Part shown: positions 9,048 through 44,871 of the stretch, piece after piece
How the letters are laid out: every line of letters starts with the position of its first letter
Numbering within the stretch: position 1 is the first letter of the stretch
Assembly (NCBI RefSeq): GCF_003576315.1
Contig: NZ_QWFZ01000015.1
Coordinates: 1-64,000 of the forward strand
Length of the DNA stretch: 64,000 bases
Origin: Henriciella mobilis
GTDB lineage: Bacteria; Pseudomonadota; Alphaproteobacteria; Caulobacterales; Hyphomonadaceae
Reading direction: 5' to 3'
The notes under the pieces: model-generated
What the model was told of the DNA's origin: nothing
Database searches by the model: none
The model's input: the letters and a program-made list of their open reading frames with translations, nothing else
Position numbers and translations under genes: made by a program

Positions 9048-9065
9048 CCTAGTTACATAAGTGAA
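9048..9065 (-). promoter_or_regulatory. Regulon palindrome, site 1
   Basis: The 18-mer CCTAGTTACATAAGTGAA belongs to the family of imperfect palindromes close to CCTAGTTATATAACTAGG that precede most operons of the island. It is centred about 42 bp upstream of the thiolase ATG at 9014. It probably binds one of the two GntR-family regulators coded in the island (inference). Confidence 0.8.
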
Positions 9066-9097
9066 AGAATTCGGCAAGCCTAATGGATCTATCTCTG

Positions 9098-9892
9098 TCA
9101 TCGAGTTGTGAATGACTTGGCTTTTCCCATAATGGCAGCCCTATCGACCTGTGCAGTGCCTATCGGATTACCGATCTGGCAATATTTCAGCGCGGTTCTG
9201 AGGGCCACGGATCGTGGCATATCGAGGGATTCCCAGATCGCCTTGACCGATCCGGCTGTTGCAGCCGGTGGCTTGGACGCAATGATTGCCGCCAGTTCCG
9301 CCGCGCGTGACCATAATTCCTCATTTGGAGTAACCTCAGAAACAAGACCGAGCCGCAACGCGGTATGCGCCGAAATGCGCTCGTCATTTCCAAGAAGGGT
9401 CATCCGCATGACGTCGCCGAGCGGCATTCGGTAGGTGGCGCCGATCGGTTCGAGCGCCGCCGTCATGCCATAGGTGACATGTGGGTCGAAAAAGGTTGCA
9501 TCTTCAGAACAGATTACGATGTCGCTCTCATTGATCCAGTAGAACGCCCCGCCGGCGGCCATTCCGTGTACGGCGCAAATGACAGGTTTCCAGCAACGGT
9601 TGGACTTCGGACCCAGCTGTTCTCCCGGATCTTCGGCAACCCAGATATCGTCATGCATCACAGCGCCGCCTGGCTGGTTTGCGGCCTTGACGTCGACCCC
9701 ACTCGAAAACGCCCGACCCGGCGCAGCGCGCAACACGGTGCAGTGGATATCACTCGTTTCGGCAATATGACGCCAGACTGTGGAAAAGTCGGACATCATC
9801 TGCCGGGTGAATGAGTTCATCGCGCCAGGCCTGTTGATGGTAACTGTGGCGACGTGATCATTCACCTCGAACAGGATTGTTTCAAATTTCAT
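9098..9892 (-). CDS. Enoyl-CoA hydratase/isomerase (crotonase family)
   Basis: A 264-residue crotonase. Visible motifs are the N-terminal T-I-N-R-P, the first oxyanion segment F-S-S-G-V-D, the second A-V-H-G-M-A-A-G-G-A-F and a Glu in Y-G-M-T-A-A-L-E-P-I-G. The region usually containing the first catalytic glutamate is less typical, so hydratase versus isomerase cannot be decided. GGGAG lies six to seven bases before the ATG. It is transcribed away from the acyl-CoA dehydrogenase pair starting at 10020, and the palindrome at 9966-9983 lies between the two starts and may control both. Confidence 0.9.
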   Translation of the reverse strand: MKFETILFEVNDHVATVTINRPGAMNSFTRQMMSDFSTVWRHIAETSDIHCTVLRAAPGRAFSSGVDVKAANQPGGAVMHDDIWVAEDPGEQLGPKSNRCWKPVICAVHGMAAGGAFYWINESDIVICSEDATFFDPHVTYGMTAALEPIGATYRMPLGDVMRMTLLGNDERISAHTALRLGLVSEVTPNEELWSRAAELAAIIASKPPAATAGSVKAIWESLDMPRSVALRTALKYCQIGNPIGTAQVDRAAIMGKAKSFTTR

Positions 9893-9965
9893 CAGGGACT
9901 CCCTTGGATTTCTGTTCTGTTATTCAGATTGACATGATGCCTTCAAAACGGGAAGTGTTAATTGA

Positions 9966-9983
9966 CCTAGTTATATAAGTGGG
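9966..9983 (+). promoter_or_regulatory. Regulon palindrome, site 2
   Basis: CCTAGTTATATAAGTGGG lies in the divergent region between the crotonase (start 9892) and the dehydrogenase pair (start 10020). The centre is about 45 bp from the plus-strand ATG, the same distance as at several other sites. The AT-rich core could overlap a -10 element. Confidence 0.85.
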
Positions 9984-10019
9984 TAATTATGCGTAAAACG
10001 CCAAGGAGGGTAGGCAAGC

Positions 10020-11138
10020 ATGAATTTCGACCTTGCTGAAGAGCAGAAGATGCTGGCTGAACAGGCCAGAGGCCTGCTTGCCGAGCTATCCCCGCCGGAC
10101 CGGCTTCGCGAGCTTATTGATGGCAACGCAGAATCGGACGAGCAGCTCTGGCGCGCCGTCGCAGAGCTTGGCTTTCTGGGAGCGAGTATTTCCGAAGAGT
10201 ATGGCGGCCTCGGCCTTGGTGCTCTGGACCTTGGCGTCATCAGCGAGGAGATGGGGCGCGCCGTTGCTGCAGTGCCCTTCTATGCGTCGATTGTCTGCGC
10301 CGCAGACGCGATCCAGACATTCGGGGGCGCAGATCAGAAAGAGGTCTGGCTTCCCCGACTTGCATCTGGTGACACCGTCGGAACCCTCGCGCATGCTGAG
10401 GGGCGCCAAGGTTGGTGGCCGCGCGGGGCAGGGGTCAGCTTTGAAAACGGTACAGTATCCGGCATCAAGACACCTGTCGGAGACGCTGGCCTTGCGGAAA
10501 TGGCGGTTGTCTACTGCAACGTTAAGGGAGTGCCCGCACTCGCGGCGGTGGACCTCACTTCAGATCGGGTAAAGCGCCGGAAGCTTGATTCCTTCGACCA
10601 GCTTCGCGCCCATTATGCGATCGAATTTCATGACGCGCCCGCCTCCTTGCTGGATGCAAGCGTGGACGACGAGGAAGCGATCCGATCCCTGATCGACCGG
10701 ATATCGGTGCAGACGTCCTTTGAAGCCGTTGGTGGCGCAGAAGCCTGCGTCTACATGGCCCGAGACTACGCTATGGATCGCCAGATTTTTGGACGACCCT
10801 TGGCCAGCTACCAGGCAATCAAGCACAAGCTCGCCGATATATTGGTAGCAACCGAATTTGCTCGTTCCAATGCATTCTTTGCGGGTTGGGCTTCAGATAA
10901 CTCGCCGGATGACCTCGCCGTGGCAGCCTCTGCCGCACGCCTGAGCGCAAGCAACGCCTATGAGCAGGCAGCTCGTGAAAACCTGCAGATACATGGCGGC
11001 ATCGGCTATACATTCGAGGCCGACTGTCACTTTCATTATCGCCGCGAACGCACGCTCGCGCTCACACTCGGGCCGCGCCAGTATTGGGCTGACAGGCTTG
11101 TCGGCCAGATTCCGGGCAATCAGATGGAGGCCGCTTGA
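10020..11138 (+). CDS. Acyl-CoA dehydrogenase, subunit of a two-subunit enzyme (pair 1)
   Basis: A 372-residue flavoprotein of the acyl-CoA dehydrogenase superfamily. The C-terminal four-helix domain has R-Q-I-F-G-R-P-L-A-S-Y-Q near residue 253 and Q-I-H-G-G-I-G-Y-T-F-E near 322. The Glu in the latter is the likely catalytic base, as in the alpha2beta2 enzymes known from steroid side-chain catabolism (FadE28-FadE29 type). The FAD-contact loop of the middle domain (S-E-P-x-x-G-S-D) is missing here, with A-E-G-R-Q-G-W-W in that region, which fits a partner supplying it. The next gene, one base after the stop, is that partner. Confidence 0.88.
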   Translation: MNFDLAEEQKMLAEQARGLLAELSPPDRLRELIDGNAESDEQLWRAVAELGFLGASISEEYGGLGLGALDLGVISEEMGRAVAAVPFYASIVCAADAIQTFGGADQKEVWLPRLASGDTVGTLAHAEGRQGWWPRGAGVSFENGTVSGIKTPVGDAGLAEMAVVYCNVKGVPALAAVDLTSDRVKRRKLDSFDQLRAHYAIEFHDAPASLLDASVDDEEAIRSLIDRISVQTSFEAVGGAEACVYMARDYAMDRQIFGRPLASYQAIKHKLADILVATEFARSNAFFAGWASDNSPDDLAVAASAARLSASNAYEQAARENLQIHGGIGYTFEADCHFHYRRERTLALTLGPRQYWADRLVGQIPGNQMEAA

Positions 11139-11139
11139 C

Positions 11140-12345
11140 ATGGATTTCAACGACACGGCTGAAGAGGCCGAATTCCGGTCTGAGGTCAAAGCCTGGCTCG
11201 CCGCGCACGCGCCAGCACACGAGTTGCCGGACGGAGCCGTGCTGGACGACTCCGAGGAAGTGGCGCGGGGCAAGGCTTGGCAACGGGAGCTATATGATGG
11301 CGGCTATGCCGGTATCCTGTTGCCGAAATCGCTTGGTGGGCGCGGCGGAACGATCATTGAAGCCGTTGTGTTCGATGAGGAGGAGCGCAAGTACAATCTG
11401 CCAAAAGGTCCATATATAGGCATCGGCCTTGGCATGGCGCTCCCGGTCATCGGCAAGCATGGTACTGAAGATCAGATCCGAAAGTTTGTTGAGCCCACGC
11501 TGAAAGGCGAGCTGACCTGGTGCCAACTGTTTTCCGAACCAGCCGCAGGCTCGGATCTGGCGGCCGTTCGCACGCGGGCGATAAAGGATGGGGATGCCTA
11601 TGTAGTGAACGGTCAGAAAGTCTGGTCGTCCTGGGCGCACCATTCCGATTGGGGTATTCTCGTCGTGCGTACCGATCCCAAAGTGGTCAAGCACAAGGGG
11701 CTTACTTTCTTTGTTCTCGATATGAAGTCGCCGGGCGTGGATGTGCGACCCATTCGTCAAATTTCCGGCGCATCCGACTTCAACGAAACCTTCCTTACCG
11801 ATGTCCGAGTACCAGAAGACTGCAGGATCGGAGCGGAAGGTGAGGGCTGGGCCTGCTGCATGACGGTGCTGATGGGCGAGCGGCTCAATCAGGGTGAAGA
11901 AGGGCGGATCGAGGAGCTGATGCAGTATGCGGCGCAGACGCCGCGGGATGGGGCCACAGCGCTCGATGATCCAGCTGTTCGCCTCTCGCTTGCAACCGCA
12001 TATGCAGAAGAGCGCGCTGCGAAGTATTTCCAGGCGCGTCTGCGAACCATGGTGTCACGCGGTGAAAACCCGGGGGCATTAGCGTCGATGATGAAGCTCA
12101 CCTATGCAAGCCGTCTCCAGAAGACGTCAGGACTGGCGATGGAGATTCGAGGCACAGATGCACTCGCGCCGGATAGTGACGCCGTCGCCACGAGGGAAAT
12201 CTGGCATGACTATATCTGGTCTACTGCCCTGCGTATCGCAGGCGGTGCCGATGAAGTGCTTCGAAACCAGATTTCCGAGCGGGTTCTTGGCATGCCGGGA
12301 GAAATGCGCGCCGATAAGGGCGTACCGTTCGATCAACTGAAATAA
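11140..12345 (+). CDS. Acyl-CoA dehydrogenase, partner subunit (pair 1)
   Basis: A 401-residue acyl-CoA dehydrogenase with an intact flavin loop (FSEPAAGSDLAAVRTRA, about residues 132-148) and the C-terminal FAD-binding arginine motif G-G-A-D-E-V-L-R-N-Q. It lacks the Y-T-x-E segment found in its neighbour. The two halves of the active site are thus split over two genes, as in heterotetrameric dehydrogenases of cholesterol catabolism. The reading frame is open upstream, but the ATG at 11140 follows the previous stop by one base and has a GGAGG site. The set 10020-12345 would oxidise an acyl-CoA too bulky for ordinary enzymes (inference). Confidence 0.88.
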   Translation: MDFNDTAEEAEFRSEVKAWLAAHAPAHELPDGAVLDDSEEVARGKAWQRELYDGGYAGILLPKSLGGRGGTIIEAVVFDEEERKYNLPKGPYIGIGLGMALPVIGKHGTEDQIRKFVEPTLKGELTWCQLFSEPAAGSDLAAVRTRAIKDGDAYVVNGQKVWSSWAHHSDWGILVVRTDPKVVKHKGLTFFVLDMKSPGVDVRPIRQISGASDFNETFLTDVRVPEDCRIGAEGEGWACCMTVLMGERLNQGEEGRIEELMQYAAQTPRDGATALDDPAVRLSLATAYAEERAAKYFQARLRTMVSRGENPGALASMMKLTYASRLQKTSGLAMEIRGTDALAPDSDAVATREIWHDYIWSTALRIAGGADEVLRNQISERVLGMPGEMRADKGVPFDQLK

Positions 12346-12384
12346 AATACAACATTCAAGCCTTGCCCCTTTTCAGAAGGTGCA

Positions 12385-12402
12385 CTTAGTTATATAAGAA
12401 AT
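12385..12402 (+). promoter_or_regulatory. Regulon palindrome, site 3
   Basis: CTTAGTTATATAAGAAAT, with a strong left half and a weak right half, is centred about 45 bp before the ligase ATG at 12439. It marks the start of the six-gene operon 12439-18480. Confidence 0.78.
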
Positions 12403-12438
12403 CGGGAACGCGGTTTTAATGGTCCCGGAGGCTCACTC

Positions 12439-13968: not shown

Positions 13969-13984
13969 AACAGGGAGGCCCGAG

Positions 13985-16050: not shown

Positions 16051-16214
16051 CGGATTTCGAGGGCATTCGAGTCAGTTGCTACGATGTTGAGGCAACGGTC
16101 ACAGCCAGCCGGTTTGACGGACGGAATGAGCTGCGCGACCACGCTCTCGCCGAACTTCGTGAACTGCTCGATGCCGTCTGGACACGCCGCGCGACGAAAA
16201 TCACCGGGAGATAG
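16047..16214 (+). pseudogene. Crotonase N-terminal remnant
   Basis: A frame of 55 codons starts with GTG overlapping the crotonase stop (GTGA) and ends three bases before the next ATG. It reads like a crotonase N-terminus: E-G-I-R-V-S-C-Y-D-V-E-A-T-V-T, then a degraded N-R-P block (S-R-F-D-G-R-N-E-L-R-D) and A-L-A-E-L-R-E-L-L-D-A-V-W. It stops where the first oxyanion strand should begin. The simplest reading is a second crotonase gene that lost about 200 codons by deletion. A short functional peptide is less likely. Confidence 0.6.
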
Positions 16215-16216
16215 GT

Positions 16217-19428: not shown

Positions 19429-19462
19429 TCCCCATATCCTTCTTTGATAGACAATTATATAA

Positions 19463-19480
19463 CCAAGTCATATAAGTATG
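19463..19480 (-). promoter_or_regulatory. Regulon palindrome, site 4
   Basis: CCAAGTCATATAAGTATG lies between the two divergent nitronate-monooxygenase-like genes. The centre is about 43 bp from the minus-strand ATG at 19428 and 30 bp from the plus-strand ATG at 19502. A further half-site, ATTATATAACC (19454-19464), overlaps it, so two regulator dimers may bind. Confidence 0.72.
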
Positions 19481-19501
19481 TCGAATTTCAGGGAGCTGCA
19501 A

Positions 19502-20491
19502 ATGGCCTTCAAGACACGTATTACCGAGCTTCTCGATATCGAGCACCCAATCGTACAGGGTGGCATGCAGAGCGTTGGCGTCGCCGAGTTGGCCTCAGCA
19601 GTTTCAAATGCTGGAGGACTGGGCATCCTCACTGCGCTAACCCAACCGTCTCCCGATGCGTTGAGAGAAGAAATCGAGAAATGCCGGTCGATGACGGACA
19701 AGCCATTCGGCGTGAACCTGACCGTTTTTCCCACGATGAACTCTCCTGACTATGCCGCCTATACGAATGCCATCATCGAGAGTGGTGTGACGATTGTGGA
19801 AACGGCCGGAACGTCAGCGGTGGCCGAATTTTGGGACATGATGAAACCGCACGGTATTCGCATCCTGCACAAATGCACTTCGGTGCGCCATTCCCTGTCT
19901 GCTGAGCGAAAAGGTGTGGATGCTATATCGATTGATGGTTTTGAATGCGCGGGACATCCCGGTGAAGATGATATTCCCGGCCTTGTTCTTATTCCCTGCG
20001 CTGCTGATCAGGTCAAAATTCCCATGATTGCCTCAGGCGGTTTTGGGGATGGACGGGGACTGGTTGCTGCCTTGGCGCTTGGCGCCGACGGCATCAATAT
20101 GGGGACGCGTTTTTGCGCAACCCAGGAAGCGCAAATCCATCCCAATGTGAAGCAGGCCTACGTCGACAATGACGAGCGCGGCACGCATCTGATTTTCCGC
20201 AAATTCAAGAATACGGCTCGCGTCGGCAAGAGCGAAGTGTCAGACGAGGTTGTACGTCGGCTGGCAGAACCGGACTCGAAGTTCAAGGACGTAGCAGAAC
20301 TTGTTGCCGGCTCCGCAGGACGCGAACTTCTGAAAACGGGAGATCTCTCGAAGGGCGTCTTTTGGGCAAGCATGGTCCAGGGCCTGATCCACGATATTCC
20401 GACAGTTCAGGAACTTGTAGACCGGATCATTGGCGAGGCGGATGCCATTCTCGATGACAGACTCGTCAAAATGAGAGCATCACTTCCTTAA
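19502..20491 (+). CDS. Nitronate monooxygenase-like flavoprotein (B)
   Basis: A 329-residue member of the nitronate monooxygenase family. The N-terminus has H-P-I-V-Q-G-G-M-Q-S-V-G. The G-F-E-C-A-G-H-P-G segment carries a histidine at the place of the catalytic base. Next come I-A-S-G-G-F-G-D-G-R-G-L and M-G-T-R-F for FMN phosphate. I chose the ATG at 19502, with GGGAG six bases upstream, over one at 19478 that would overlap the operator. It is only distantly similar to its divergent neighbour, so the two probably do not share a substrate. Confidence 0.85.
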   Translation: MAFKTRITELLDIEHPIVQGGMQSVGVAELASAVSNAGGLGILTALTQPSPDALREEIEKCRSMTDKPFGVNLTVFPTMNSPDYAAYTNAIIESGVTIVETAGTSAVAEFWDMMKPHGIRILHKCTSVRHSLSAERKGVDAISIDGFECAGHPGEDDIPGLVLIPCAADQVKIPMIASGGFGDGRGLVAALALGADGINMGTRFCATQEAQIHPNVKQAYVDNDERGTHLIFRKFKNTARVGKSEVSDEVVRRLAEPDSKFKDVAELVAGSAGRELLKTGDLSKGVFWASMVQGLIHDIPTVQELVDRIIGEADAILDDRLVKMRASLP

Positions 20492-20560
20492 AAGGTTTCT
20501 ATTAGTCATGATAATTTCGTTTCGTAGCTGATATTGTTAAATGTAGCCCTTTAAAAGGTA

Positions 20561-20578
20561 CCTAATTACGTAGTGTTC
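20561..20578 (+). promoter_or_regulatory. Regulon palindrome, site 5
   Basis: CCTAATTACGTAGTGTTC is a weaker copy preceded by TAAAAGGTA, a context repeated at 42765-42773 before the second GntR gene. It lies 76 bp (centre) upstream of the amidohydrolase ATG at 20646, farther than at other operons. Confidence 0.6.
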
Positions 20579-20645
20579 CTTATTCCGGTTTTGGGGGGCG
20601 TGCTTACTCTTTCGGGTGTCATCTGACTGTCTAAGGAGAAAGCCG

Positions 20646-21797: not shown

Positions 21798-21832
21798 TTG
21801 TCAGCTCGAACGGGGAGGTCGTGACAATTGAA

Positions 21833-23444: not shown

Positions 23445-23506
23445 GCTATTGCTCCCTGGACTGTCCCGTCGCCACAAACTGGCAAATAAACGATCAAGCT
23501 GTTAGA

Positions 23507-23524
23507 CCTAGTTATATATATTAT
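23507..23524 (+). promoter_or_regulatory. Regulon palindrome, site 6 (at the GntR gene)
   Basis: CCTAGTTATATATATTAT has a perfect left half. It lies midway between the divergent starts of the ligase (23444) and the GntR-family gene (23582). An operator of this kind in front of a regulator gene suggests autoregulation and points to that regulator as the binding protein. Confidence 0.78.
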
Positions 23525-23581
23525 GTCACAAAGCGGAAAGAGCGCTGCTTAATAGACAGGTATGGCGGAAGGAATTGAGAC

Positions 23582-24397
23582 ATGGTCACCAAGACGACTG
23601 CAGTAAGTAGCCGTACCGGAGCCCGGAAAGGGACAACCCCGCGTATTCGCACACCCAAGACATCGGAAGTCGTTGCTGACCAGATCCGGGCGCAAATCGT
23701 CAGAGGTGAACTTGTGGAAGGTGATACGCTGCCGCCTGAAGGGCAGCTCATGGAAACACTCGGCGTTTCACGTCCGACTCTGCGAGAGGCTTATCGTATA
23801 CTGGAAGCTGAGAACTTCATCAGCGTAACTCGTGGTTCCAGATCAGGCGCGCAAGTCCATCAGCCTCAAGTCGAAGTTGCTGCACGATACGCAGGCTATA
23901 TCCTTCAATCTCAGGGCACAACAATTGCAGATCTTTACGCATCACAGATGGCAATCGAGCCGTTCACGGTACGAAGCCTTTGCCGGATGCGAAACAATAA
24001 GGCTGCTGTGACGGCCCTCAGTGAGCATTGCGAATACCTTGTCACCCTCATTGAGGACGAACGGATAGACGCCTTTACTAAAGGCGTTGCGGAATTCCAC
24101 AGCCTGCTTGTGAAGCTGACAGGGAACAAGACTCTTACCCTGATCACGCAGCTGCTTCAGGATTTGATGGCCAACCATAAAGCAGACCTTATGCGACGTG
24201 ACCCCATTGAAAAGGACGCGCGTAAGAAGCGGCTTAACAGTGCGATCAAATCCTATCGCAAGCTTATCAAGCTGATTGCTGACAAAGAAGAAGAGGCTGC
24301 CGTGGCGCATTGGCGACTGCACCTGAAGAACGCTCACGCATCTTGGGCGAGAGCTGGCGAAGGCGAACGCGTCGTCGATGCCATTAATGCCTACTGA
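23582..24397 (+). CDS. GntR-family transcriptional regulator, FadR-like (1)
   Basis: A 271-residue regulator with a basic N-terminal extension (about 1-25), a winged helix (about 30-95, with G-D-T-L-P-P-E and G-V-S-R-P-T-L-R-E-A-Y-R-I-L-E), and an all-helical FCD-type effector domain (about 115-255). FCD domains bind small acids or acyl-CoAs, and often a metal. The gene sits in the middle of the island with a regulon palindrome upstream, so it is my leading candidate for the regulator of that palindrome. The stop overlaps the ligase gene at 24378 by 20 bp, coupling the two. Confidence 0.88.
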   Translation: MVTKTTAVSSRTGARKGTTPRIRTPKTSEVVADQIRAQIVRGELVEGDTLPPEGQLMETLGVSRPTLREAYRILEAENFISVTRGSRSGAQVHQPQVEVAARYAGYILQSQGTTIADLYASQMAIEPFTVRSLCRMRNNKAAVTALSEHCEYLVTLIEDERIDAFTKGVAEFHSLLVKLTGNKTLTLITQLLQDLMANHKADLMRRDPIEKDARKKRLNSAIKSYRKLIKLIADKEEEAAVAHWRLHLKNAHASWARAGEGERVVDAINAY

Positions 24398-25925: not shown

Positions 25926-25939
25926 CGCTACCTTGCGCA

Positions 25940-25957
25940 TTGAGTTATTTAACTAGG
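25940..25957 (+). promoter_or_regulatory. Regulon palindrome, site 7 (inverted orientation)
   Basis: TTGAGTTATTTAACTAGG carries the strong half-site on its right side, opposite to most plus-strand operons. The centre is 73 bp upstream of the dehydrogenase ATG at 26022. It lies just past the stop of the preceding ligase gene. Confidence 0.7.
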
Positions 25958-26021
25958 TGTGCTTTCTATTGAGCTGGTCGCGGCGCCGCCGCGATAGATG
26001 CGATAGGAAGGCGATACCGGA

Positions 26022-28357: not shown

Positions 28358-28368
28358 GCCAATTCATG

Positions 28369-29154
28369 TCAGGGGCGCAGGATCCAGCCGCCATCGACGT
28401 GTAAGACCTGTCCGGAAATCCAGCCGCCGGCCGGAGAAACAAGCAGAAGAAGTGCACCGACCAGTTCGTCGGGTTCACCGCGCAGTCGCAACGTCACCAT
28501 ACCTTCAAGCATCTTCACAAAGGGCGAATCCTCAGGCGTCAGGGTCGCGCCCGCGTCCGACATGGTATTGCCAGGCGCGATGGCGTTGACGGCGATCTTC
28601 TGGCTGCCCAGCTCCCGCGACAGCGTGGTTGTCAGTCCAACGAGTGCGATCTTTGTGATTCCATACACTGTTTGTGCGGGAAACGCACCGCCGGAAACCT
28701 GGTTAACTATGCGTCCGCCACCGCGTTCAGCCATAAGCGGCGCGACTGCCTGAGAGCAGTTGAGCGCCCCTGTGAGATTGACCGCAATCGCCTTGTTCCA
28801 CGATTCAAGATCGATCTGAATGGCCGGTTTGGAAACAATTTCGACCATGAGGGCGGCATTGTTCACGAGGATATCGACCCCACTGAATGCGGCCGTGGTC
28901 TCTGCCACCATGGCGTTCACGCTGGATCGATCAGTAATGTCGACCTGAACCGAAATCGCCTCTCCACCCGATTGCCTGATCTCGTCGGCGACCTTTGCCG
29001 CACCTTCTTTGTTAAGGTCTGCGACGACGACTTTCGCGCCAGCACTGGCAAGGCCAAGTGCATATGCCCGGCCAATTGAATTGCCGCGCCCGCCAGCGCC
29101 AGTGACGATGGCGACCTGCCCGTCGACACGGAATTGATCGAGTGAAAATGCCAT
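28369..29154 (-). CDS. Short-chain dehydrogenase/reductase
   Basis: A complete 261-residue classical SDR: nucleotide motif T-G-A-G-G-R-G-N-S-I-G, N-N-A-A near residue 98, catalytic Ser154, Tyr164 and Lys168 (V-Y-G-I-T-K), and the V-D-G-G tail. An Asp after the second strand (V-A-D-L-N) suggests NAD rather than NADP. It is the last gene of the P450 operon, so oxidation of the alcohol made by the P450 is a reasonable role. AAAGGA precedes the ATG. Confidence 0.9.
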   Translation of the reverse strand: MAFSLDQFRVDGQVAIVTGAGGRGNSIGRAYALGLASAGAKVVVADLNKEGAAKVADEIRQSGGEAISVQVDITDRSSVNAMVAETTAAFSGVDILVNNAALMVEIVSKPAIQIDLESWNKAIAVNLTGALNCSQAVAPLMAERGGGRIVNQVSGGAFPAQTVYGITKIALVGLTTTLSRELGSQKIAVNAIAPGNTMSDAGATLTPEDSPFVKMLEGMVTLRLRGEPDELVGALLLLVSPAGGWISGQVLHVDGGWILRP

Positions 29155-29159
29155 ATCGG

Positions 29160-29528: not shown

Positions 29529-29539
29529 ATAAGGGTGCC

Positions 29540-31003: not shown

Positions 31004-31032
31004 GGGTGTTTCTTCTATGATGGGGTTTAGGT

Positions 31033-32238: not shown

Positions 32239-32267
32239 CTTGTTCTCCCTTCCGTTCTTGTGCCATT

Positions 32268-32287
32268 AAGTAAATTCAGATTTACTT
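32268..32287. promoter_or_regulatory. Perfect 20-bp inverted repeat, probable TetR operator
   Basis: AAGTAAAT and its exact complement ATTTACTT are separated by TCAG. The site lies in the 80-bp region between the divergent P450 operon and the TetR-family gene, a standard place for an operator that represses both. It has no resemblance to the regulon palindrome. A partial match to that palindrome (GGTATCTAACCAGGTC) lies nearby at 32299-32314. Confidence 0.8.
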
Positions 32288-32318
32288 GCGGGTCAATAGG
32301 TATCTAACCAGGTCAAAC

Positions 32319-32879
32319 ATGGAAGACAGTGTCAGGCGGCGGAATCCTGAGCGGACACGCCAGTCCATCCTTTCTGCCGCGCAGGAAATATTTTCACGAC
32401 GGCCCTATGCAGAGGCATCACTCAAGGAGATTACTGCTAAGGCGGGAGCCAATCCCGCCCTTGTCAGCCGTTATTTTGGATCGAAGGAAAAACTCTTCGA
32501 AGCGGCGCTAGAAGCTTCACTTGATGCTGGTCCACTCATGCCCGCATCGCGTGAATCATTCGGCGAGCAGGTGGTCAGCGCCTTTTTAAGCCCCGATCGA
32601 GGTCGGGTGAATCCCCTGTCAATGTTGATATTTTCGACGGCCGAAGCGGGCCTGCAGTCCATGGCTTTGCGTTTGTTGCAGGATCGGATTGTCGTGCCGC
32701 TATCGGCGTGGCTCGGAGAAGATGATGCTGAAACGCGCGCGGCCCGGGTCATGATGGTGGCTTCGGGCTTCTTTATCTATCGAAGTCTGTTGCCGCTCGC
32801 GTCGATGACCGGCCCGCTTGATCCAGCGACAAGACAGTGGCTCGCCAATTGTTTTCAGTCCGCGATAGACAATGGCTAG
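32319..32879 (+). CDS. TetR-family transcriptional regulator
   Basis: A 186-residue TetR regulator. The N-terminal helix-turn-helix is complete (R-Q-S-I-L-S-A-A-Q-E-I-F, then L-K-E-I-T-A-K-A-G-A and L-V-S-R-Y-F-G-S-K-E-K-L-F). The rest is a helical ligand domain without recognised detail. The ATG at 32319 gives the usual short N-arm; an upstream in-frame ATG lies in the operator region. By divergent position and the adjoining 20-bp repeat it should repress the P450 operon and itself. Its ligand may be a pathway intermediate (inference). Confidence 0.88.
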   Translation: MEDSVRRRNPERTRQSILSAAQEIFSRRPYAEASLKEITAKAGANPALVSRYFGSKEKLFEAALEASLDAGPLMPASRESFGEQVVSAFLSPDRGRVNPLSMLIFSTAEAGLQSMALRLLQDRIVVPLSAWLGEDDAETRAARVMMVASGFFIYRSLLPLASMTGPLDPATRQWLANCFQSAIDNG

Positions 32880-32929
32880 CCTTCGGTCCGCGCGCGGGCA
32901 TCGATGTTTCCTGTCATATAGCTCGATTA

Positions 32930-32947
32930 CTAGGTCATATAGGTGTA
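32930..32947 (+). promoter_or_regulatory. Regulon palindrome, site 8 (weak)
   Basis: CTAGGTCATATAGGTGTA keeps the CATATA centre and flanking G-T positions but departs from the consensus in the outer bases. The centre is about 42 bp before the ligase ATG at 32980, the same distance as for stronger sites, which supports it. Confidence 0.6.
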
Positions 32948-32979
32948 GGCTGGTAGTACGAGGGCAGGAGACGTAAGAT

Positions 32980-34485
32980 ATGGCGGTGATAACCGAGAGA
33001 CTGAGGCGGGTCATGGCACTTGATCACGCCGCGAAGGCAATCGACTTCAATGAAAAATGGATTGATTGGGGGAAACTTGCTTCCCGAGTCGACGACATTG
33101 AGGTGATCTTTGCAGAACTGGGTCTCCCGCAAGGCGCGCGGATTGGTGCGTTGCTGCACAACCGACCAGGTCATGTTGCCTCCATACTCGCGGTGCTCGC
33201 GTCGGATCGTTGTCTCGTCACTCTTAATCCGGTTTATCCGGATGAAACTCTGGGTCCTGATATTCAGGCGCTTGATATTCCACTTGTTATTGGCGAGCCG
33301 TCAGATCTCGAGCGGGTGGGCGTTCAGGCTGCGATCGATCTTCTCGATGCTAGCGTAATTGAGATTGCTCCAGACCTCGAGACGGTGAAGCTGGCGCGCA
33401 CTGGTCGAAATGCGGCAGCTGGTTCTAATGGGGATGTCGCAATTGAAATGCTGACAAGCGGGACCACTGGCAAACCAAAACGCGTCCCCCTCAGCCGATC
33501 GGCCTTCGACGCAAGCTTCGCTGCAATTGCGAGCCATGACAAAAGCCGCGATCCTGATGAAGAGGTCAAGCTTCGCTCTTCAACGACACTGATACTGAAT
33601 CCGGTAACCCACATCGGTGGCATTTATGGTGTCATTGGGGCTCTGATGGCGGGCCGGAGGATTTGCCTGGTTGAACGCTTTTCAGTGGAAAACTGGGTTC
33701 GGGCCGTGACCCGTCATAGGCCCAAAGTGGCCCCGGCCGTACCAGCCGCGCTCAGAATGCTGATTGAAGCAGACCTCCCACGGGAGCACTTCTCAAGCCT
33801 GTCGGCGATCATCAGTGGAACGGCGCCTTTATCGCCGGATGTCGTGGATACCTTTCTCGAAAAATATGGGGTTCCGGTCCTTTCTAATTATGGGGCAACG
33901 GAGTTCGCAGGCGCCGTAGCCGCCTGGTCTCTTCCTGATTTCAAGGCCCATTGGAGAGACAAGAAGGGCGCTGCCGGACGGCTTCATTCGAGCTTGCAAG
34001 CTCGGATTGTTGAGCCTGAATCAGGGAAGATCCTGCCAGATGGGCAAGAGGGTGTGCTGGAACTCAAAGGGGCCCAGCTCGGGACGGGCGAGTCCTGGCT
34101 GCGGACCACGGACCGGGCAGTGATTGATGAAGACAGATTTCTTTTCATCAGAGGGCGCGCTGACAATGCGATTATTCGCGGTGGCTTCAAGGTTCATCCG
34201 GATGACATTGTCAGGGCGATAGAGTCTCACCCAGCAGTTCGCGAAGCAGCAATTGTCGGAGTCCCTGACGAACGTCTCGGCGAGGTGCCTGCCGCAGCCA
34301 TTATCCTGAAAGATGGGGCCGAGGCGCTGAAGAGTGACGACATGCGCGCTTATCTGCGCGAGCGCCTGGTTCCCTATCAGGTGCCTGTTCACTACCGCAT
34401 CGTCGATGACATTCCTCGAACGCCAAGCATGAAGCCTGCCACGTTGCCGCTCAAGAAATTGTTTGCGTCCCACTCCGAAAAGTAG
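32980..34485 (+). CDS. Acyl-CoA synthetase (AMP-forming), paralogue of the 12439 ligase
   Basis: A 501-residue ANL-family ligase closely related to the protein at 12439-13968 along its whole length. It shares L-T-S-G-T-T-G-K-P-K-R, S-N-Y-G-A-T-E-F-A-G-A-V-A and the block FIRGRADNAIIRGGFKVHPD. The C-terminal lysine is again in an unusual setting, R-T-P-S-M-K-P. AGGAG precedes the ATG. It is followed, three bases after the stop, by a strong regulon palindrome for the next gene. Two such ligases suggest two related acids or stages of degradation. Confidence 0.9.
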   Translation: MAVITERLRRVMALDHAAKAIDFNEKWIDWGKLASRVDDIEVIFAELGLPQGARIGALLHNRPGHVASILAVLASDRCLVTLNPVYPDETLGPDIQALDIPLVIGEPSDLERVGVQAAIDLLDASVIEIAPDLETVKLARTGRNAAAGSNGDVAIEMLTSGTTGKPKRVPLSRSAFDASFAAIASHDKSRDPDEEVKLRSSTTLILNPVTHIGGIYGVIGALMAGRRICLVERFSVENWVRAVTRHRPKVAPAVPAALRMLIEADLPREHFSSLSAIISGTAPLSPDVVDTFLEKYGVPVLSNYGATEFAGAVAAWSLPDFKAHWRDKKGAAGRLHSSLQARIVEPESGKILPDGQEGVLELKGAQLGTGESWLRTTDRAVIDEDRFLFIRGRADNAIIRGGFKVHPDDIVRAIESHPAVREAAIVGVPDERLGEVPAAAIILKDGAEALKSDDMRAYLRERLVPYQVPVHYRIVDDIPRTPSMKPATLPLKKLFASHSEK

Positions 34486-34487
34486 CA

Positions 34488-34505
34488 CCTAGTTATATAA
34501 CTGGA
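34488..34505 (+). promoter_or_regulatory. Regulon palindrome, site 9 (best match)
   Basis: CCTAGTTATATAACTGGA is nearly a perfect palindrome: 16 of 18 positions agree with CCTAGTTATATAACTAGG. It begins three bases after the ligase stop and is centred about 36 bp before the SDR ATG at 34532. Confidence 0.85.
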
Positions 34506-34531
34506 GAAATGTGAACGAGGAGATCTGCTGA

Positions 34532-35314: not shown

Positions 35315-35319
35315 GGCTG

Positions 35320-36357: not shown

Positions 36358-36394
36358 TGCCTGCTTGACGTTGCGTCTTGTTTTGCAGGGTACA

Positions 36395-36412
36395 CCTAGT
36401 TATACAAGTAGT
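36395..36412 (+). promoter_or_regulatory. Regulon palindrome, site 10
   Basis: CCTAGTTATACAAGTAGT is centred about 47 bp before the TonB receptor ATG at 36451. The position implies that uptake is controlled together with catabolism. Confidence 0.8.
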
Positions 36413-36450
36413 GAAGGTCGGGCAATTGATCTGACCCATGGGAGGAAAAT

Positions 36451-38802: not shown

Positions 38803-38830
38803 CCCGGAGCTAATTTCGGGGGGAACAGAG

Positions 38831-38852
38831 GGCGGGGCCTGAAGACCCCGCC
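38831..38852 (+). terminator. Hairpin after the TonB receptor
   Basis: GGCGGGG and CCCCGCC pair around an eight-base loop, followed by TTCATGCTTTG. The stem is strong but the T-run is poor, so it may be a partial terminator or mRNA-stabilising structure between the receptor and downstream genes. Confidence 0.5.
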
Positions 38853-38880
38853 TTCATGCTTTGAGATCGGGAGCTGTGTC

Positions 38881-40071: not shown

Positions 40072-40075
40072 ATAT

Positions 40076-41404
40076 ATGGCGACCCAGCCTTTGCCCGCGC
40101 GACCACAAAGCGAAGCAGCGAAGTCGATATCGCCTTTTCGACGAAATCTGACGCTGGCGCTCATCGGTCTTGTCGCCATTATCAATTACGTCGACCGGCA
40201 GGCTTTCACTGTGCTGATGGAAGATATCAAGACCGAGTTCGTGCTGAATGACACGGTTCTTGGTCTCATTGGCGGACTGGTCTTTGGCGTCATTTATGCC
40301 CTGGCGGCAATTCCGATTGCCCGCATCGCCGATCGCACGGACAGGCCTCTGGTTATAGCGATCTGTCTCGGTTTCTGGAGCTTGGCGACAGCCGCCTGCG
40401 GTCTTGCTGCAAACGCTTGGCACATTGCGATTGCCCGGATGGGAATTGCGGTCGGCGAGTCCGGGTCGGGACCGGCCGGCGTTGCTCTGGCCGCTGAAAT
40501 CTTCCCAGACAACAGAAGAGTCCTGGTTCTTGGAACGATCCAGGCGGCGAGCTCGATCGGTCTGTCTGTGGGCGTCGTCCTGACGGCTTGGCTGGCAACG
40601 TTCCTGTCTTGGCGACACACATTTATTGCCATCGGTCTTCCGGGCATCCTGCTGGCCTTGCTGGTTTATTTCCTCGCGGCGGAGCCACGCCGGAAGGAGA
40701 AATTGGAAGCGTCGTCTTCGAGCAAGACGGATGATGCTCCAATACCTCTTGGCGAAGCTGTCCGCATCATTGCAGGAACCCCCGCGCTTCGCTGGCTCGC
40801 ATTACTTTGTATAGCCGTCCCCATGACCGGGTTCGGGTTCCTGATGTGGGGGCCGTCCTTCCTGCAACGTGTGCATGGCTTCAACATGCAGGAGGTCACC
40901 TGGTTTGGCTGGGCTATCCTTGCCGGACTTGTATCCGGCAATCTGACGGCCGGTTGGCTTGGGGATCGGTATGGCAGCAGGCATCCCCGCTTCAATGCTA
41001 TTCTTGCCGCCAGCGGCTTGCTGATCGCTGTGCCTTTCGCAGCTGGGTTTGCCCTCCTGCCTAATGCCTATGCTGCGATAGCATGTTTTGTCGTGCTCAA
41101 ATTTGCCATGACACTATGGATGGCGCCAACAATTGCCCTGACATTTACCCTGGTTCCGGTTCGCATGCGGGCGACGATTAATTCGCTGATGAATGCCATC
41201 GTGATTCTGTCTGGCATTGGTTTCGGCTTCATAGTCGCTGGTGCGCTAAGTGATGCCTATTCGCAGGCATTCGGCGCAAGTTCGCTTCGATATGCTCTGC
41301 TGACGATGAGCAGTGGCCTGATCGTTGGCGCATTTGCCTGCATCATGGCAGCACGTTCAGTCGCGCGGGCTAAAGAAAAAGAGAACGCGACAGTTGCCAT
41401 CTGA
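40076..41404 (+). CDS. MFS transporter, spinster-like
   Basis: A 442-residue major facilitator with 12 predicted membrane segments. The first helix ends I-N-Y-V-D-R-Q-A-F, the signature of spinster-type and organic-acid MFS proteins. The loop 2-3 motif has A-R-I-A-D-R-T-D-R-P, and W-L-G-D-R-Y-G lies in the second half. It follows the kinase-like gene by four bases. It would move a substrate or intermediate across the inner membrane after TonB uptake. Direction and substrate are unknown. Confidence 0.9.
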   Translation: MATQPLPARPQSEAAKSISPFRRNLTLALIGLVAIINYVDRQAFTVLMEDIKTEFVLNDTVLGLIGGLVFGVIYALAAIPIARIADRTDRPLVIAICLGFWSLATAACGLAANAWHIAIARMGIAVGESGSGPAGVALAAEIFPDNRRVLVLGTIQAASSIGLSVGVVLTAWLATFLSWRHTFIAIGLPGILLALLVYFLAAEPRRKEKLEASSSSKTDDAPIPLGEAVRIIAGTPALRWLALLCIAVPMTGFGFLMWGPSFLQRVHGFNMQEVTWFGWAILAGLVSGNLTAGWLGDRYGSRHPRFNAILAASGLLIAVPFAAGFALLPNAYAAIACFVVLKFAMTLWMAPTIALTFTLVPVRMRATINSLMNAIVILSGIGFGFIVAGALSDAYSQAFGASSLRYALLTMSSGLIVGAFACIMAARSVARAKEKENATVAI

Positions 41405-41424
41405 ATAAACTTTATGATCGGAGC

Positions 41425-41457
41425 AAAAAAAAGGACCTGGCCCACGAGGCCAGGTCC
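41425..41457 (-). terminator. Intrinsic terminator of the amidohydrolase gene
   Basis: GGACCTGGCC and GGCCAGGTCC form a perfect 10-bp stem with a five-base loop. The A8 run at 41425-41432 becomes T8 on the minus strand directly after the hairpin. This ends transcription of the minus-strand gene at 41552-42658. The MFS gene on the other strand may share the hairpin. Confidence 0.88.
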
Positions 41458-41551
41458 ATCGAGTTATAGCCTTCACCCCCGGAGGTCGCCGCTTGGCAGA
41501 TCAGAGTGAAGACCGGACGGGAGGAGAAACGACTGCTCCCGAAATCCTTGA

Positions 41552-42658
41552 TCAGCTAGCAACGAGATCGGCGACAGCGGGATTCTTCAGTCCAAACAGG
41601 CGCGCTGCATTCCCGCCGAGAATAAGTCGCTTTTCCCGCTCTGGAATATCGATGCCTGCGAACAGCCCGTCGACGATTTCCTTGGATTTCGGGAACGTGC
41701 CTTCTGCATGCGGATAATCCGACGCCCACATGATGTTTTCAACGCCGATTTCATGGCGATGGACGATGCAGGCCCGATCGTGCTGAAAGGAGGCGTATAC
41801 TTGGCGCTTGATGATCTCGCTCGGCATCATTGAGAGTTTCGGATGCACGAAATGATGGTGCGCCACATAGACTTCGTCCATGCGTTCGGCAACGGCTGCG
41901 AGCCAGCTTGCGCCGCTTTCGATAAACGCTACTTTTGCCTTCGGATTACGATCGAGCACACCGCCGGCGACGAGGTACTGGCACGAGTTGATGGCGTCAT
42001 TCATCTGATTTGAATAATTGATGACGGCCGCGCCGGGCCCGCGCTCGTGAATTACGGTTTCAAGTCCTGTGCCAGTGTGCAGCACGAAGACCATGCCAAG
42101 CTCGCCTGCCAGATTGAAGACCGGATCCCAGGCAGGGTCATTATACTTGGCAATCGCTTTCGGTGTCACTGCGGGAAGCATCGCCGCTTTGATCCCCATG
42201 CCGACCAGGCGCTTCATTTCAGCCATCGTGTTTGAGAAATCTAGAACTGGCAGGACACCGCACCTGACGAACCGGTCAAGATGGTCGGCAAAGTAGTCAT
42301 GGTTCCAATCATTATAAACCTGGCACGAGGCAGCTTCAGCCTCCGGGTCATCAAGGCAATAAAGCCAGAGGCCGAGCGATGGGAACACTATTTCGGCATC
42401 AATGCCATCCAGCTCCATGTCGAGGATTCGGCCAGGAATTTCCCGAACGCCGCGCCGTTCGCGGTCGCCGAGTTCCTTCTCGCCTTTCTTGCCAACCCGG
42501 AGTCGGTAGATGGTTTTGTCCTCGGTGCCGGTGATGATGTAATCGTCTTTCTTGTAGGCGTGGATCGCGTGTTTTTTTAGCGATGCCGGAAGTCCGTCGA
42601 GAAAGAGGCTATTCGGTTCGACGACATGGCTGTCTGCGCTGAATACGAATGGTTGCAT
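41552..42658 (-). CDS. Amidohydrolase-2 family protein (B)
   Basis: A 368-residue paralogue of the protein at 20646. Motifs are S-A-D-S-H (residues 7-11), V-L-H-T-G-T-G with the metal histidine, N-Q-M-N-D-A-I in both proteins, and S-D-Y-P-H-A-E-G-T with the late Asp. Members act as metal-dependent decarboxylases or hydrolases. It is a single-gene unit with a regulon palindrome upstream (42706-42723) and a strong terminator downstream. It diverges from the second GntR gene. Two related amidohydrolases under one regulon suggest two similar steps on different intermediates. Confidence 0.87.
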   Translation of the reverse strand: MQPFVFSADSHVVEPNSLFLDGLPASLKKHAIHAYKKDDYIITGTEDKTIYRLRVGKKGEKELGDRERRGVREIPGRILDMELDGIDAEIVFPSLGLWLYCLDDPEAEAASCQVYNDWNHDYFADHLDRFVRCGVLPVLDFSNTMAEMKRLVGMGIKAAMLPAVTPKAIAKYNDPAWDPVFNLAGELGMVFVLHTGTGLETVIHERGPGAAVINYSNQMNDAINSCQYLVAGGVLDRNPKAKVAFIESGASWLAAVAERMDEVYVAHHHFVHPKLSMMPSEIIKRQVYASFQHDRACIVHRHEIGVENIMWASDYPHAEGTFPKSKEIVDGLFAGIDIPEREKRLILGGNAARLFGLKNPAVADLVAS

Positions 42659-42705
42659 GGAACACTCCGCTTAGTTGGGGCGGTTCATCCAGTCCGCCTT
42701 AATGG

Positions 42706-42723
42706 GTAACTAATATAACTAAG
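42706..42723 (-). promoter_or_regulatory. Regulon palindrome, site 11
   Basis: GTAACTAATATAACTAAG keeps ATAACTA on the right, that is TAGTTAT read toward the amidohydrolase, and is centred about 57 bp from its start at 42658. It lies in the divergent region shared with the second GntR gene. Confidence 0.68.
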
Positions 42724-42770
42724 TGCCACAAATATCAACATTGATTATTTGATATCACTCACCTAAAAGG

Positions 42771-42788
42771 TAACTATTATATCGGAGA
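42771..42788 (+). promoter_or_regulatory. Possible half-site before the second GntR gene
   Basis: TAACTATTATATCGGAGA follows AAAAGGTA, the same context as at 20551-20560. It would overlap the ribosome site of the GntR gene at 42793. The match to the palindrome is weak; it is listed because the AAAAGGTA context recurs. Confidence 0.35.
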
Positions 42789-42792
42789 TCGC

Positions 42793-43518
42793 ATGATGCC
42801 GTTTGACGAACCTGATGAAACAAGGCTTTCGCTCGTGGAGCGAACCGCACGCCAGCTTACCGAAATGTCCATGACCGCTGGCGAGGGCGATTTTCTCGGT
42901 TCCGAGCCAGACCTGCTCGCTCGTTTCGACGTATCCCGCCCAACCTTGCGTCAGGCAGCCAAGCTTGTGGCGGCAGACCGCATGATCGACGTTCGCAAGG
43001 GGCAAGGCGGAGGGTTCTTTGCATCGCGCCCCAATGCTGTTGATGTGATCAGGGCGCCCGCCCGGTATCTTCGGCTAAAAGGAGCGACAATTGAAAATAT
43101 CCAGGCGGTCACTCTTCCTCTCGCAGAAGAAGCGGCTGCCGCGGCGTGTAGCTGTGCCGATGCCGGGCTTTGGCAGAAGCTTGCCATGTTCAGAGCGGAT
43201 GCAGAAAACGCGCTGCAGACTGATGAAACGCCCGACCTTTTGATCAGGAAGGAAACAGAGCTGGCCAGGCTCTTGGCGCAAATGAGCGGCAACCCTGCTT
43301 TCATGCTGTTTATCGAGATCGGCTACACCTTTGGTCGCAAGGAACAGAATCTGCGCTTCTTCCAGACAGTGGAAGATCGCCGCCGCGCCCGCGAGCTCCA
43401 GTTGGCTCTTTGCGATGCTGTACTAGCGAGAGATGAGGAGATCGCTCGTCTCATGATCAAGCGGCGGTCCAGAATGATTACCGAATGGTTGAACAGAGAT
43501 GCATCTGCGAAAGCATGA
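42793..43518 (+). CDS. GntR-family transcriptional regulator, FadR-like (2)
   Basis: A 241-residue regulator with an N-terminal winged helix (about 10-75, including F-L-G-S-E-P-D-L-L-A-R-F-D-V-S-R-P-T-L-R-Q-A) and a helical C-terminal effector domain of FCD type (about 90-230). It is related to the regulator at 23582 but not a close copy: the helix-turn-helix recognition regions (S-R-P-T-L-R) agree, so both might read similar operators. The first codon may be 42793 or the next ATG at 42796. The hydrolase-flavin reductase gene follows by 18 bp. Confidence 0.85.
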   Translation: MMPFDEPDETRLSLVERTARQLTEMSMTAGEGDFLGSEPDLLARFDVSRPTLRQAAKLVAADRMIDVRKGQGGGFFASRPNAVDVIRAPARYLRLKGATIENIQAVTLPLAEEAAAAACSCADAGLWQKLAMFRADAENALQTDETPDLLIRKETELARLLAQMSGNPAFMLFIEIGYTFGRKEQNLRFFQTVEDRRRARELQLALCDAVLARDEEIARLMIKRRSRMITEWLNRDASAKA

Positions 43519-43536
43519 ATGAGGGAGGAAGATCTT

Positions 43537-44763
43537 ATGCCACTTCAGGAATATATCGGGTTCGCAGGGGCACGACTTCAGGCGGATGTGCAGGGATGGC
43601 CCGAGGACCCCGCAGTCCTGATGTTGCATGGCGGAGGCCAGACACGGGACATGTGGAAGCCAACCGTGGAGTCTCTGGTCAAGGCCGGTCGCTATGTCAT
43701 CAGTCTTGACCTGCGCGGCCATGGTGAAAGCGACTGGCCCGAAGACGGGCGCTACGATCTGGATGCGTATGTTGGCGACCTCAAGTCCGTCCTCAATGAA
43801 CTTGGGTCGCGGCCGGTCATTGTTGCAGCCTCGCTTGGCGGCTGGATTGCCAGTGTCGCACTTGGTGAAGAGGGCAGTCACCTTGCAACGGGTCTGGTCT
43901 TGGTTGATGCGCCGCCCGAAATAGATGTGAGGAAGGCTCGGAAGATATCGGATGCGCTCAAGAAACGCGCTGAAACGGACGCCGGATCATTGCCCTGGGA
44001 TGTTCGGTTTCTGGATGGATTTGATATCGAGTCGACCCTGGCCCGCATCACGCGCAGCGCGACCAATATCAAGCTTCCTGTCCTTTTCGTCCGGGGTGCG
44101 CTTTCAGAGCTTACTGAACATGAAGCTGCGACCCGCTTTCTTGAGAGCTTCAAGAATCCGGAATTCGCCGAGATCAAGGAATCGCGTCATCTTGTAACAG
44201 AAGAACGCTCAGATCTTTTCAATGCCGCGATTGTCGATTTCCTGGAGCGGCGAGTTCCGAGGTTCACGCCTGAGTATAGATCCGGTTCGGATGCGCGAAC
44301 CCTTCGGGATGCGCTTGGCTGCTTCGCGACCGGGGTTACAGTCGTTACAGCCATGACTGGAGAACAGTCGCCAATCGGACTGACGGCCAACTCCTTCACA
44401 TCAGTGTCTCTTGATCCGGCGCTACTGCTAGTCTGTATCGCCAAATCGGCCGGTTCTCTCAGCTCCCTGAAAGCAGCGTCGCACTTCGGCGTCAACGTGT
44501 TGCACATAGGGCAGCAAGGTATCTCGAACACCTTCGCGAAACCAGGTGAAGACAGGTTTGCCCAAACCCCCTGGCAGCGGGGGAACCATGACGTGCCTCT
44601 CATCAATGGGGCACTGGCGAACTTCGAGTGCCGCCAACAGGAGATCGTTGACGGTGGCGACCATGAAATCCTGATTGGTGAAGTGCTTCGCGCAAAGTTT
44701 GAGCCGCGGCGAGACCCCTTGCTCTACTTTGGTGGCAAATACCGCCGCCTTCACTTCTCTTAG
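43537..44763 (+). CDS. Alpha/beta hydrolase - flavin reductase fusion protein
   Basis: A 408-residue two-domain protein. Residues 1-240 are an alpha/beta hydrolase with oxyanion motif H-G-G-G, nucleophile Ser99 in A-A-S-L-G-G and His218 in E-S-R-H-L; the acid position carries Glu191 rather than Asp. Residues 250-408 are a split-barrel flavin reductase of the HpaC/FMN type (G-C-F-A-T-G-V-T-V-V-T, then T-A-N-S-F-T-S-V-S-L-D-P-A-L-L). The fusion is continuous with no frameshift. The ATG at 43537 has GGGAGG; an earlier ATG gives six extra residues. A flavin reductase normally feeds a two-component monooxygenase, which is not obvious nearby. Confidence 0.85.
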   Translation: MPLQEYIGFAGARLQADVQGWPEDPAVLMLHGGGQTRDMWKPTVESLVKAGRYVISLDLRGHGESDWPEDGRYDLDAYVGDLKSVLNELGSRPVIVAASLGGWIASVALGEEGSHLATGLVLVDAPPEIDVRKARKISDALKKRAETDAGSLPWDVRFLDGFDIESTLARITRSATNIKLPVLFVRGALSELTEHEAATRFLESFKNPEFAEIKESRHLVTEERSDLFNAAIVDFLERRVPRFTPEYRSGSDARTLRDALGCFATGVTVVTAMTGEQSPIGLTANSFTSVSLDPALLLVCIAKSAGSLSSLKAASHFGVNVLHIGQQGISNTFAKPGEDRFAQTPWQRGNHDVPLINGALANFECRQQEIVDGGDHEILIGEVLRAKFEPRRDPLLYFGGKYRRLHFS

Positions 44764-44824
44764 GTCGATTTATCGCAATTTCTGGCGTGTAGCGCTGGAC
44801 AAAGCGCATTCTGTCTATCTATAA

Positions 44825-44842
44825 CCTAGTTATATAAGTGAT
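44825..44842 (+). promoter_or_regulatory. Regulon palindrome, site 12
   Basis: CCTAGTTATATAAGTGAT shares its first 16 bases with the site at 9966. The centre is about 38 bp before the TTG start at 44872. It is the last site of the series; I see none beyond it. Confidence 0.85.
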
Positions 44843-44871
44843 CCGAGGATCCGATAATAGGGAGGCCAGCT

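Follow-up and report, generated by a model that had tools for sequence, protein, structure and literature searches.

Which of its three regulators would read the motif that recurs between the genes of a catabolic island in Henriciella mobilis? The island lies in the first 64,000 nucleotides of contig NZ_QWFZ01000015.1 (this whole stretch is called the window here) and encodes two GntR-family proteins, GntR1 and GntR2, and one TetR-family protein. A first-pass annotation, made from the sequence alone, had listed 12 intergenic sites, described them as a symmetric 18-bp palindrome marking a single regulon, and proposed that a FadR-type GntR regulator of the island binds them. The observation stands in part: the 12 sites of the present analysis, their confinement to the island and their conservation are computational results, as are the link between the motif and the GntR1 lineage and the existence of separate boxes for the other two regulators, and the sites differ in shape and in one member from those first listed. 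The interpretation likewise survives in its main lines (one regulon, with a FadR-type binder encoded in the island), whereas the simple palindrome, the membership of 20561 and the argument from GT...AC half-sites find no support; and, where both GntR proteins had been candidates, comparison favours GntR1 rather than GntR2. Judged from such comparisons, it is very probably GntR1 that reads the motif, and the island seems to have three regulators, each with an operator of its own, rather than a single regulator for everything.

The sites were defined with a 30-column matrix made from 36 sites in the corresponding islands of three other genomes, the window being left out. It found exactly 12 sites in the window at every threshold tried (8, 10, 12, 14 and 16), their scores running from 17.4 to 34.0 and no further match reaching 8, while 100 simulated windows gave a mean of 0.97 matches at 8 or above (the largest number being 4) and of 0.03 at 14 or above; the sites in the other three islands had first been chosen with a window-seeded matrix, and the two sets are thus not wholly independent. 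Eleven of the 12 sites first listed were recovered. The other, at 20561, scored -2.5 on a 24-column matrix from all four islands and overlaps a putative GntR2 box, and one site, in the P450/TetR promoter (32292-32328), had been missed. All 12 operators were found by both matrices. At a low cut of 9.5, the earlier, four-island matrix gave two weak extras, at 28695 (9.6, within an open reading frame) and 52260 (13.9), and at 15 or above it gave none in the window outside 9.0-44.9 kb. The claim that no site precedes 9.0 kb, follows 44.9 kb or lies inside a gene was borne out with the window-left-out matrix, the last point depending on the chosen starts (ATG 32319 for TetR and the first ATG for thiolase2); even with that TetR start, the extended pair at 32292-32328 overruns the start codon.

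The first-pass annotation had also proposed a weight-matrix scan of the whole genome and of its relatives, and such scans confine the motif to the island and, within the family, to genomes that have one. The same 36 sites, made into a sequence-only model, gave 10 matches in the genome at E<=10, all within C7:9040-44841 and representing nine distinct sites; the three lowest-scoring of the 12 (32292-32328, 32914-32950 and 42703-42739) fall under its cut. A corrected 17-mer at <=3 mismatches matched the genome 11 times (reversed control, 1), nine times in the island and twice on contig C27; the two C27 matches (3 mismatches) were put down to chance, there being nothing at 12 or above on the matrix in that region. 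Three island-free genomes (G012, G025 and G087) had 1, 0 and 0 model matches, and among 105 genomes of the family, at E<=0.1 and with stricter filters, there were 34 matches, every one of them in the four island genomes, the remaining 101 having none. In a survey of 150 genomes at <=2 mismatches (for which a reversed control gave 1-2 matches per strand in many), 12 had a match, the window's own included: G010, G084 and G067 had clusters on one contig, G096 had four scattered matches and seven genomes had one each. The island has a syntenic counterpart in each of G010, G084 and G067, which contains most of the enzymes and all three regulators, and the motif recurs in these three further islands largely at the same promoters. 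As a separate matter, ACCGAGTAATATAAGTG is a single recurrent site in five genomes of one genus (G047, G067, G079, G080 and G085; loci L019, L021, L022, L024 and L031), four of which have no motif cluster.

The notion of a simple symmetric palindrome was not supported. As an 18-mer it matches, at <=3 mismatches, only three times in the window (0.00 expected), and in the same three places genome-wide. When the sites are put in register, all 12 have AC at the left edge and share the string ACCTAGTTATATAAGTG, which, compared with the 18-mer, extends further on the left and is weaker on the right. Positions A2, C3, G7, T8 and A12 (0-based, in the 24-mer) are invariant in 36/36 sites and A14 in 35/36. 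A half, GTTATA, is common to two inverted repeats, AC-CTA-GT and the AGTTATATAACT of the first-pass annotation, so that the site is a composite of that palindrome and an extra half-site; because the two repeats share GTTATA, many sites score on both strands, 13 bp apart. Symmetry about the CTA centre and about the TATA centre is not separable (mean complementarity 0.464 vs 0.447, with shuffled values of 0.497 and 0.441). Two of the original observations on anatomy hold: seven sites keep CCTAGTTA, six on the + strand and the seventh (25940) on the other, and, by arithmetic on the coordinates, at least seven of the originally defined centres are 36-48 bp upstream of a start codon.

Might such a motif be not an operator but an extended -10 type promoter element, used by a dedicated sigma factor or activator? 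It contains TATATAA; 34 of 48 sites are, by our assignment, oriented with the following gene (eight are opposite and six were left out); and, where measured, the CTA centre is 40-57 bp before the start codon at thiolase/LTP, SDR2, ligase1, ligase3 and ACAD-small-1, although it is at 63-93 bp for amidohydrolase 2, GntR1 and P450. A promoter element would hardly be expected to show the reversed orientation seen at ACAD3 and thiolase2, to lie between divergent genes as other sites do, to keep AC-N3-GT in 36/36 sites, or to track a GntR lineage through two phyla, and we regard this explanation as very unlikely.

This association with a lineage points to GntR1 as the reader. Relatives of GntR1 at E<=1e-20 are present in only 15 of 398 genomes of the order, and those above 70% identity (at least 73%) only in the four island genomes. 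In a species-wide collection (the best 80 GntR1 relatives among the matches listed), the motif occurs near relatives in Sphingopyxis, Novosphingobium, Nocardia, Mycolicibacterium and the genus of the G163/G096 type, in some cases at the relative's own promoter. Sites are present at 36 of the 37 loci with 50% identity or more, 87 in all against a mean of 0.8 for 10 column-permuted matrices (three of these loci are training islands, and the exception, L151, starts at the gene); at 45-49% it is 6/15 loci (nine sites, permuted 0.3) and below 45% it is 15/28 (28 sites, permuted 2.7). At 15 of the 36 scorable loci at 50% identity or more, the 300 bp upstream of the relative's gene include a site of 14 or above, and such a site also precedes the relative's gene at eight of nine Mycolicibacterium loci and in Sphingomonas paeninsulae, G163 and G263. 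The six S. paeninsulae places that reach 12 or above (13.6 to 20.0) all fall in gaps around the GntR1 relative, one of them at its own promoter, while the GntR2 and TetR homologues also present on the plasmid are elsewhere. In Mycolicibacterium, sites of the TTACTGAGTTG type begin 66-122 bp ahead of the gene match at eight of nine loci; no such site precedes the gene at either of the two Mycobacterium loci. Two of five Nocardia loci have seven and six sites, beside a thiolase/LTP 76% identical to that of the island, and in those two genomes all model matches at E<=3 (2/2 and 3/3) are on a contig numbered like the locus contig, three of the five falling inside the locus range. In these Nocardia loci (L199 and L201), two GntR1-type genes, several motif sites and the 76%-identical thiolase/LTP are found together, and transfer between phyla is possible.

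Two other observations were made in this collection. Upstream of GntR1-like genes of about 30% identity (L069-L072), other TATA-centred palindromes, of the CAAT..ATTG type, were seen by eye. L133, from a metagenome-assembled genome labelled Gammaproteobacteria, has the same layout of matches as the locus L132 from a Sphingopyxis metagenome-assembled genome, and its taxon label is probably wrong.

Several results weigh against assigning the motif to GntR1. No site at all was found at 9/15 loci of 45-49% identity and 13/28 below 45%, and among the 36 loci of 50% or more, 21 (most Sphingopyxis loci included) lack a site of 14 or above within 300 bp of the GntR1-type gene; the same is true of the GntR1 relatives in G096 and G171 (L062, L063) and in G079 (L064). 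The model misses the promoter sites in the two Mycolicibacterium genomes tried (one match elsewhere in one, none in the other) and finds only two matches on the S. paeninsulae plasmid, one in the GntR1 locus and one elsewhere. In Sphingopyxis H073 and Novosphingobium kunmingense the regulators sit in one cluster, so these loci alone do not separate them. When 34 same-orientation sites were aligned, no shared -35 position emerged. G096, G163, G171 and G263 are AT-rich, and the reversed-pattern control gives more matches there than the pattern itself, so that placement before pathway genes is the sole evidence in those genomes. Finally, an unlinked regulator could conceivably be the one that reads the motif.

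As for the other two regulators of the island, each seems to have a box of its own. TetR is present in all four islands and one of the 12 sites is at its promoter, which might make it a candidate for all of them; between P450 and TetR, however, lies a different and perfect palindrome, AAGTAAATTCAGATTTACTT (32268-32287). It has counterparts in the three other islands and, as GTAAAC-N4-GTTTAC, in 14/14 Sphingopyxis-type P450/TetR gaps, the same 14 gaps containing no GntR1 site at 15 or above. The loci of three TetR homologues (L078, L081 and L082) have no motif at 12 or above, that of S. paeninsulae (L080) has one site, away from the TetR gene, and in G096, G163, G171 and G263 TetR has only short helix-turn-helix matches. 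That TetR binds the 12 sites is hardly credible on this evidence.

A somewhat better case could be made for GntR2, which belongs to the same family as GntR1, has a motif site at its promoter and is found in all four islands. That promoter, though, also bears a different, paired box. AATAGGTAWCTAWT-like boxes are paired at a spacing of 63 or 64 bp, or six helical turns, and eight such pairs occur in eight promoters: in the window (two pairs), G010, G084 and G067 (one each) at <=2 mismatches, and in Sphingopyxis H073 (one) and N. kunmingense (two) at <=3 mismatches, the last three being at loci L209 and L212. Unpaired matches were at 32295 and, with 3 mismatches, at 41248 in the window, at 44272 in G084 and at 233137 in G067, with four in H073. 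The lone box is mildly enriched in the window (eight matches at <=3 mismatches vs 3.33 expected), and it is the fixed spacing and the conservation that carry the case for it as a putative GntR2 operator; the pairing suggests looping or two cooperating dimers. Searches of G096, G163, G171 and G263 (in G096 and G163 the motif was placed at genes) found no GntR2 orthologue (or TetR orthologue), only short or GntR1-type matches, and the GntR2 homologue of S. paeninsulae has no site at its own gene and two elsewhere in its locus. We therefore consider it very unlikely that GntR2 binds the 12 sites.

How might GntR1 act at its sites? A -35/-10-like pair overlies the left arm of the site at the thiolase/LTP promoter in all four islands, and this overlap with a core promoter makes repression the likelier mode rather than activation. 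We infer binding by each of the three regulators, the mode of control, an effector and the number of dimers on the composite site. In the most likely model, GntR1 would occupy the core promoters of some twelve transcription units (for uptake, CoA activation, acyl-CoA oxidation, the P450 branch and regulators, GntR1 itself included) and would repress them until an acyl-CoA or acid of the pathway bound its FCD domain and released it from the DNA, a small carboxylate or an acyl-CoA being the kind of effector expected in the FadR subfamily. TetR would add local control of the P450 branch, and GntR2 of the amidohydrolase genes, each through its own operator. The best solved relatives of the P450, CYP101J2 and CYP101D5, hint that the substrate of the island may be a cyclic terpenoid. 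On this model, an uncharacterised catabolic island would become a testable network, with three regulators and three distinct boxes (Table 1). Genes that look, from protein appearance only, like those of transposases or recombinases flank the island on both sides (89-2590, 2645-4291 and 50261-50965 in the window).

Table 1. Regulators, predicted operators and boxes in the window
Feature	Position	Strand	Remarks
Operator 1	9032-9068	.	before thiolase2 (- strand genes, toward CoA-transferase and thiolase1)
Operator 2	9963-9986	+	before ACAD small/large subunits 1 (+); divergent ECH1
Operator 3	12382-12405	+	before ligase1-MaoC-ECH2-ACAD pair
Operator 4	19447-19483	.	between divergent NMO1 and NMO2
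Operator 5	23491-23527	.	between FadD4-like ligase and GntR1 (putative autoregulation)
Operator 6	25937-25960	-	before ACAD3, opposite orientation
Operator 7	32292-32328	.	P450/TetR promoter
Operator 8	32914-32950	.	before ligase3; lowest score of the 12
Operator 9	34485-34508	+	before SDR2-DUF2889
Operator 10	36392-36415	+	before TonB receptor-kinase-MFS
Operator 11	42703-42739	.	between amidohydrolase 2 and GntR2
Operator 12	44809-44845	.	before thiolase/LTP-DUF35-ligase4-PaaK-like
GntR1	23582-24397	+	GntR + FCD regulator, proposed binder of the motif; Pfam GntR 1e-17, FCD 2.8e-15
TetR	32319-32879	+	local regulator; Pfam TetR_N and TetR_C_16
Predicted TetR operator	32268-32287	.	AAGTAAAT-N4-ATTTACTT, exact in window; P450/TetR gap
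GntR2	42793-43518	+	second GntR/FCD regulator, local; Pfam FCD just above cut-off, GntR just below
GntR2 box	20553-20566	+	AAAAGGTACCTAAT; overlaps listed site 20561; not a GntR1 operator
GntR2 box	20490-20503	+	partner 63 bp upstream, before amidohydrolase 1
GntR2 box	42701-42714	+	at own promoter; overlaps GntR1 site at 42703
GntR2 box	42765-42778	+	partner 64 bp away

A second set of genes comes into view in G163 and G096, which belong to a different family within the order (first-look candidates numbered 520 and 453, respectively, and 150 of each were scored). Six of nine distinct places in G163 precede plausible targets: genes for a biotin carboxylase-type subunit and a carboxyltransferase subunit, sdhC, sdhB, a malic enzyme gene, and the gene of the GntR1 relative, after which comes a flavin reductase. 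Another place lies, in our reading, inside the gene for the small subunit of methylmalonyl-CoA mutase, within its first 25 codons, and two have no plausible target. Of five places in G096, four lie before the mutase genes, the gene of the biotin carboxylase-type subunit, sdhB and, at a distance of about 300 bp, sdhC, and the fifth is inside a response-regulator gene. The names come from NCBIfam for ten proteins, G163 sdhB and G096 sdhC being named by likeness; the biotin carboxylase passes one broad subfamily cut-off only, and the best model for the carboxyltransferase is mmdA, below its cut-off. The carboxylase subunits are presumably those of propionyl-CoA carboxylase, and together the targets would make up a route from propionyl-CoA to pyruvate. 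Loci with motif sites at such carboxylase, mutase, succinate dehydrogenase or malic enzyme genes are L202-L206, L055-L057, L216 and L217. The genome of the window has a 67% homologue of the carboxylase subunit on another contig, and the whole-genome model found no motif match there. It seems, then, that the regulon was rewired in the genus of G163 and G096. Tentatively, GntR1 and its composite operator may form a transferable unit in Alphaproteobacteria and Actinobacteria, governing in most hosts a terpenoid-like CoA catabolic core and in this one genus the conversion of propionyl-CoA to pyruvate. If so, both regulons would be accounted for by one common effector, be it propionyl-CoA, methylmalonyl-CoA or a related acyl-CoA, and the motif at genes of the methylmalonyl-CoA pathway, where one operator serves two quite different regulons, would give a handle on what the regulator senses. 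More generally, a DNA code would be assigned to a GntR lineage present in two phyla.

How does this compare with known systems? A literature search for the motif string and for such a GntR regulator found, among the results listed, no description of this regulon; a paper on PheR (PMC13273656), to judge from its available text, concerns an IclR-type regulator. GntR1 has the domains of the FadR subfamily (an N-terminal GntR winged helix-turn-helix and a C-terminal FCD domain, both above the Pfam cut-off), yet it scores only 24.1 on the model for the fatty-acid FadR equivalog (TIGR02812, cut-off 249.2). The best solved relative of its profile is NanR of Escherichia coli (6on4, 3.5e-20), three dimers of which, according to the accessible parts of PMC8012715, occupy a (GGTATA)3 repeat. 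The two systems share an operator with more than two half-sites, but those of NanR are direct GGTATA repeats and those of the island are inverted and of the GTTATA type, and the genes regulated are different; GntR1 is not a NanR equivalog (88.9 on NCBIfam against a cut-off of 260), and direct GGTATA repeats are absent from the sites. BioR of Alphaproteobacteria, whose site is TTATMKATAA as quoted in PMC4494728, is another member of the subfamily with an atypical, TTAT..ATAA-type site, and is similar to that extent (as judged from the site description); it differs in controlling a biotin regulon, in having a longer centre and in lacking a flanking CTAG half-site. As far as the available text of Suvorova et al. 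(2015; PMC4494728) goes, the subfamily consensus consists of TKGT/ACMA boxes with GT and AC 2-3 nt apart, NanR and BioR being exceptions. The first-pass annotation had argued from GT...AC half-sites, but in the island palindrome GT and AC are 6 nt apart (GT-N6-AC) and the invariant core of the 36 sites is AC-N3-GT. GntR1 fits the FadR subfamily by its domains and departs from the operator consensus as given there. What remains in common, besides the GntR and FCD domains, is the use of A/T-rich inverted repeats and an accessory element: the same source describes, for sites of the GntR family, an adjoining, weaker half-site at 7-12 nt from the centre, and the extra half-site of the island motif lies about 9 nt from the centre of the palindrome as first defined.

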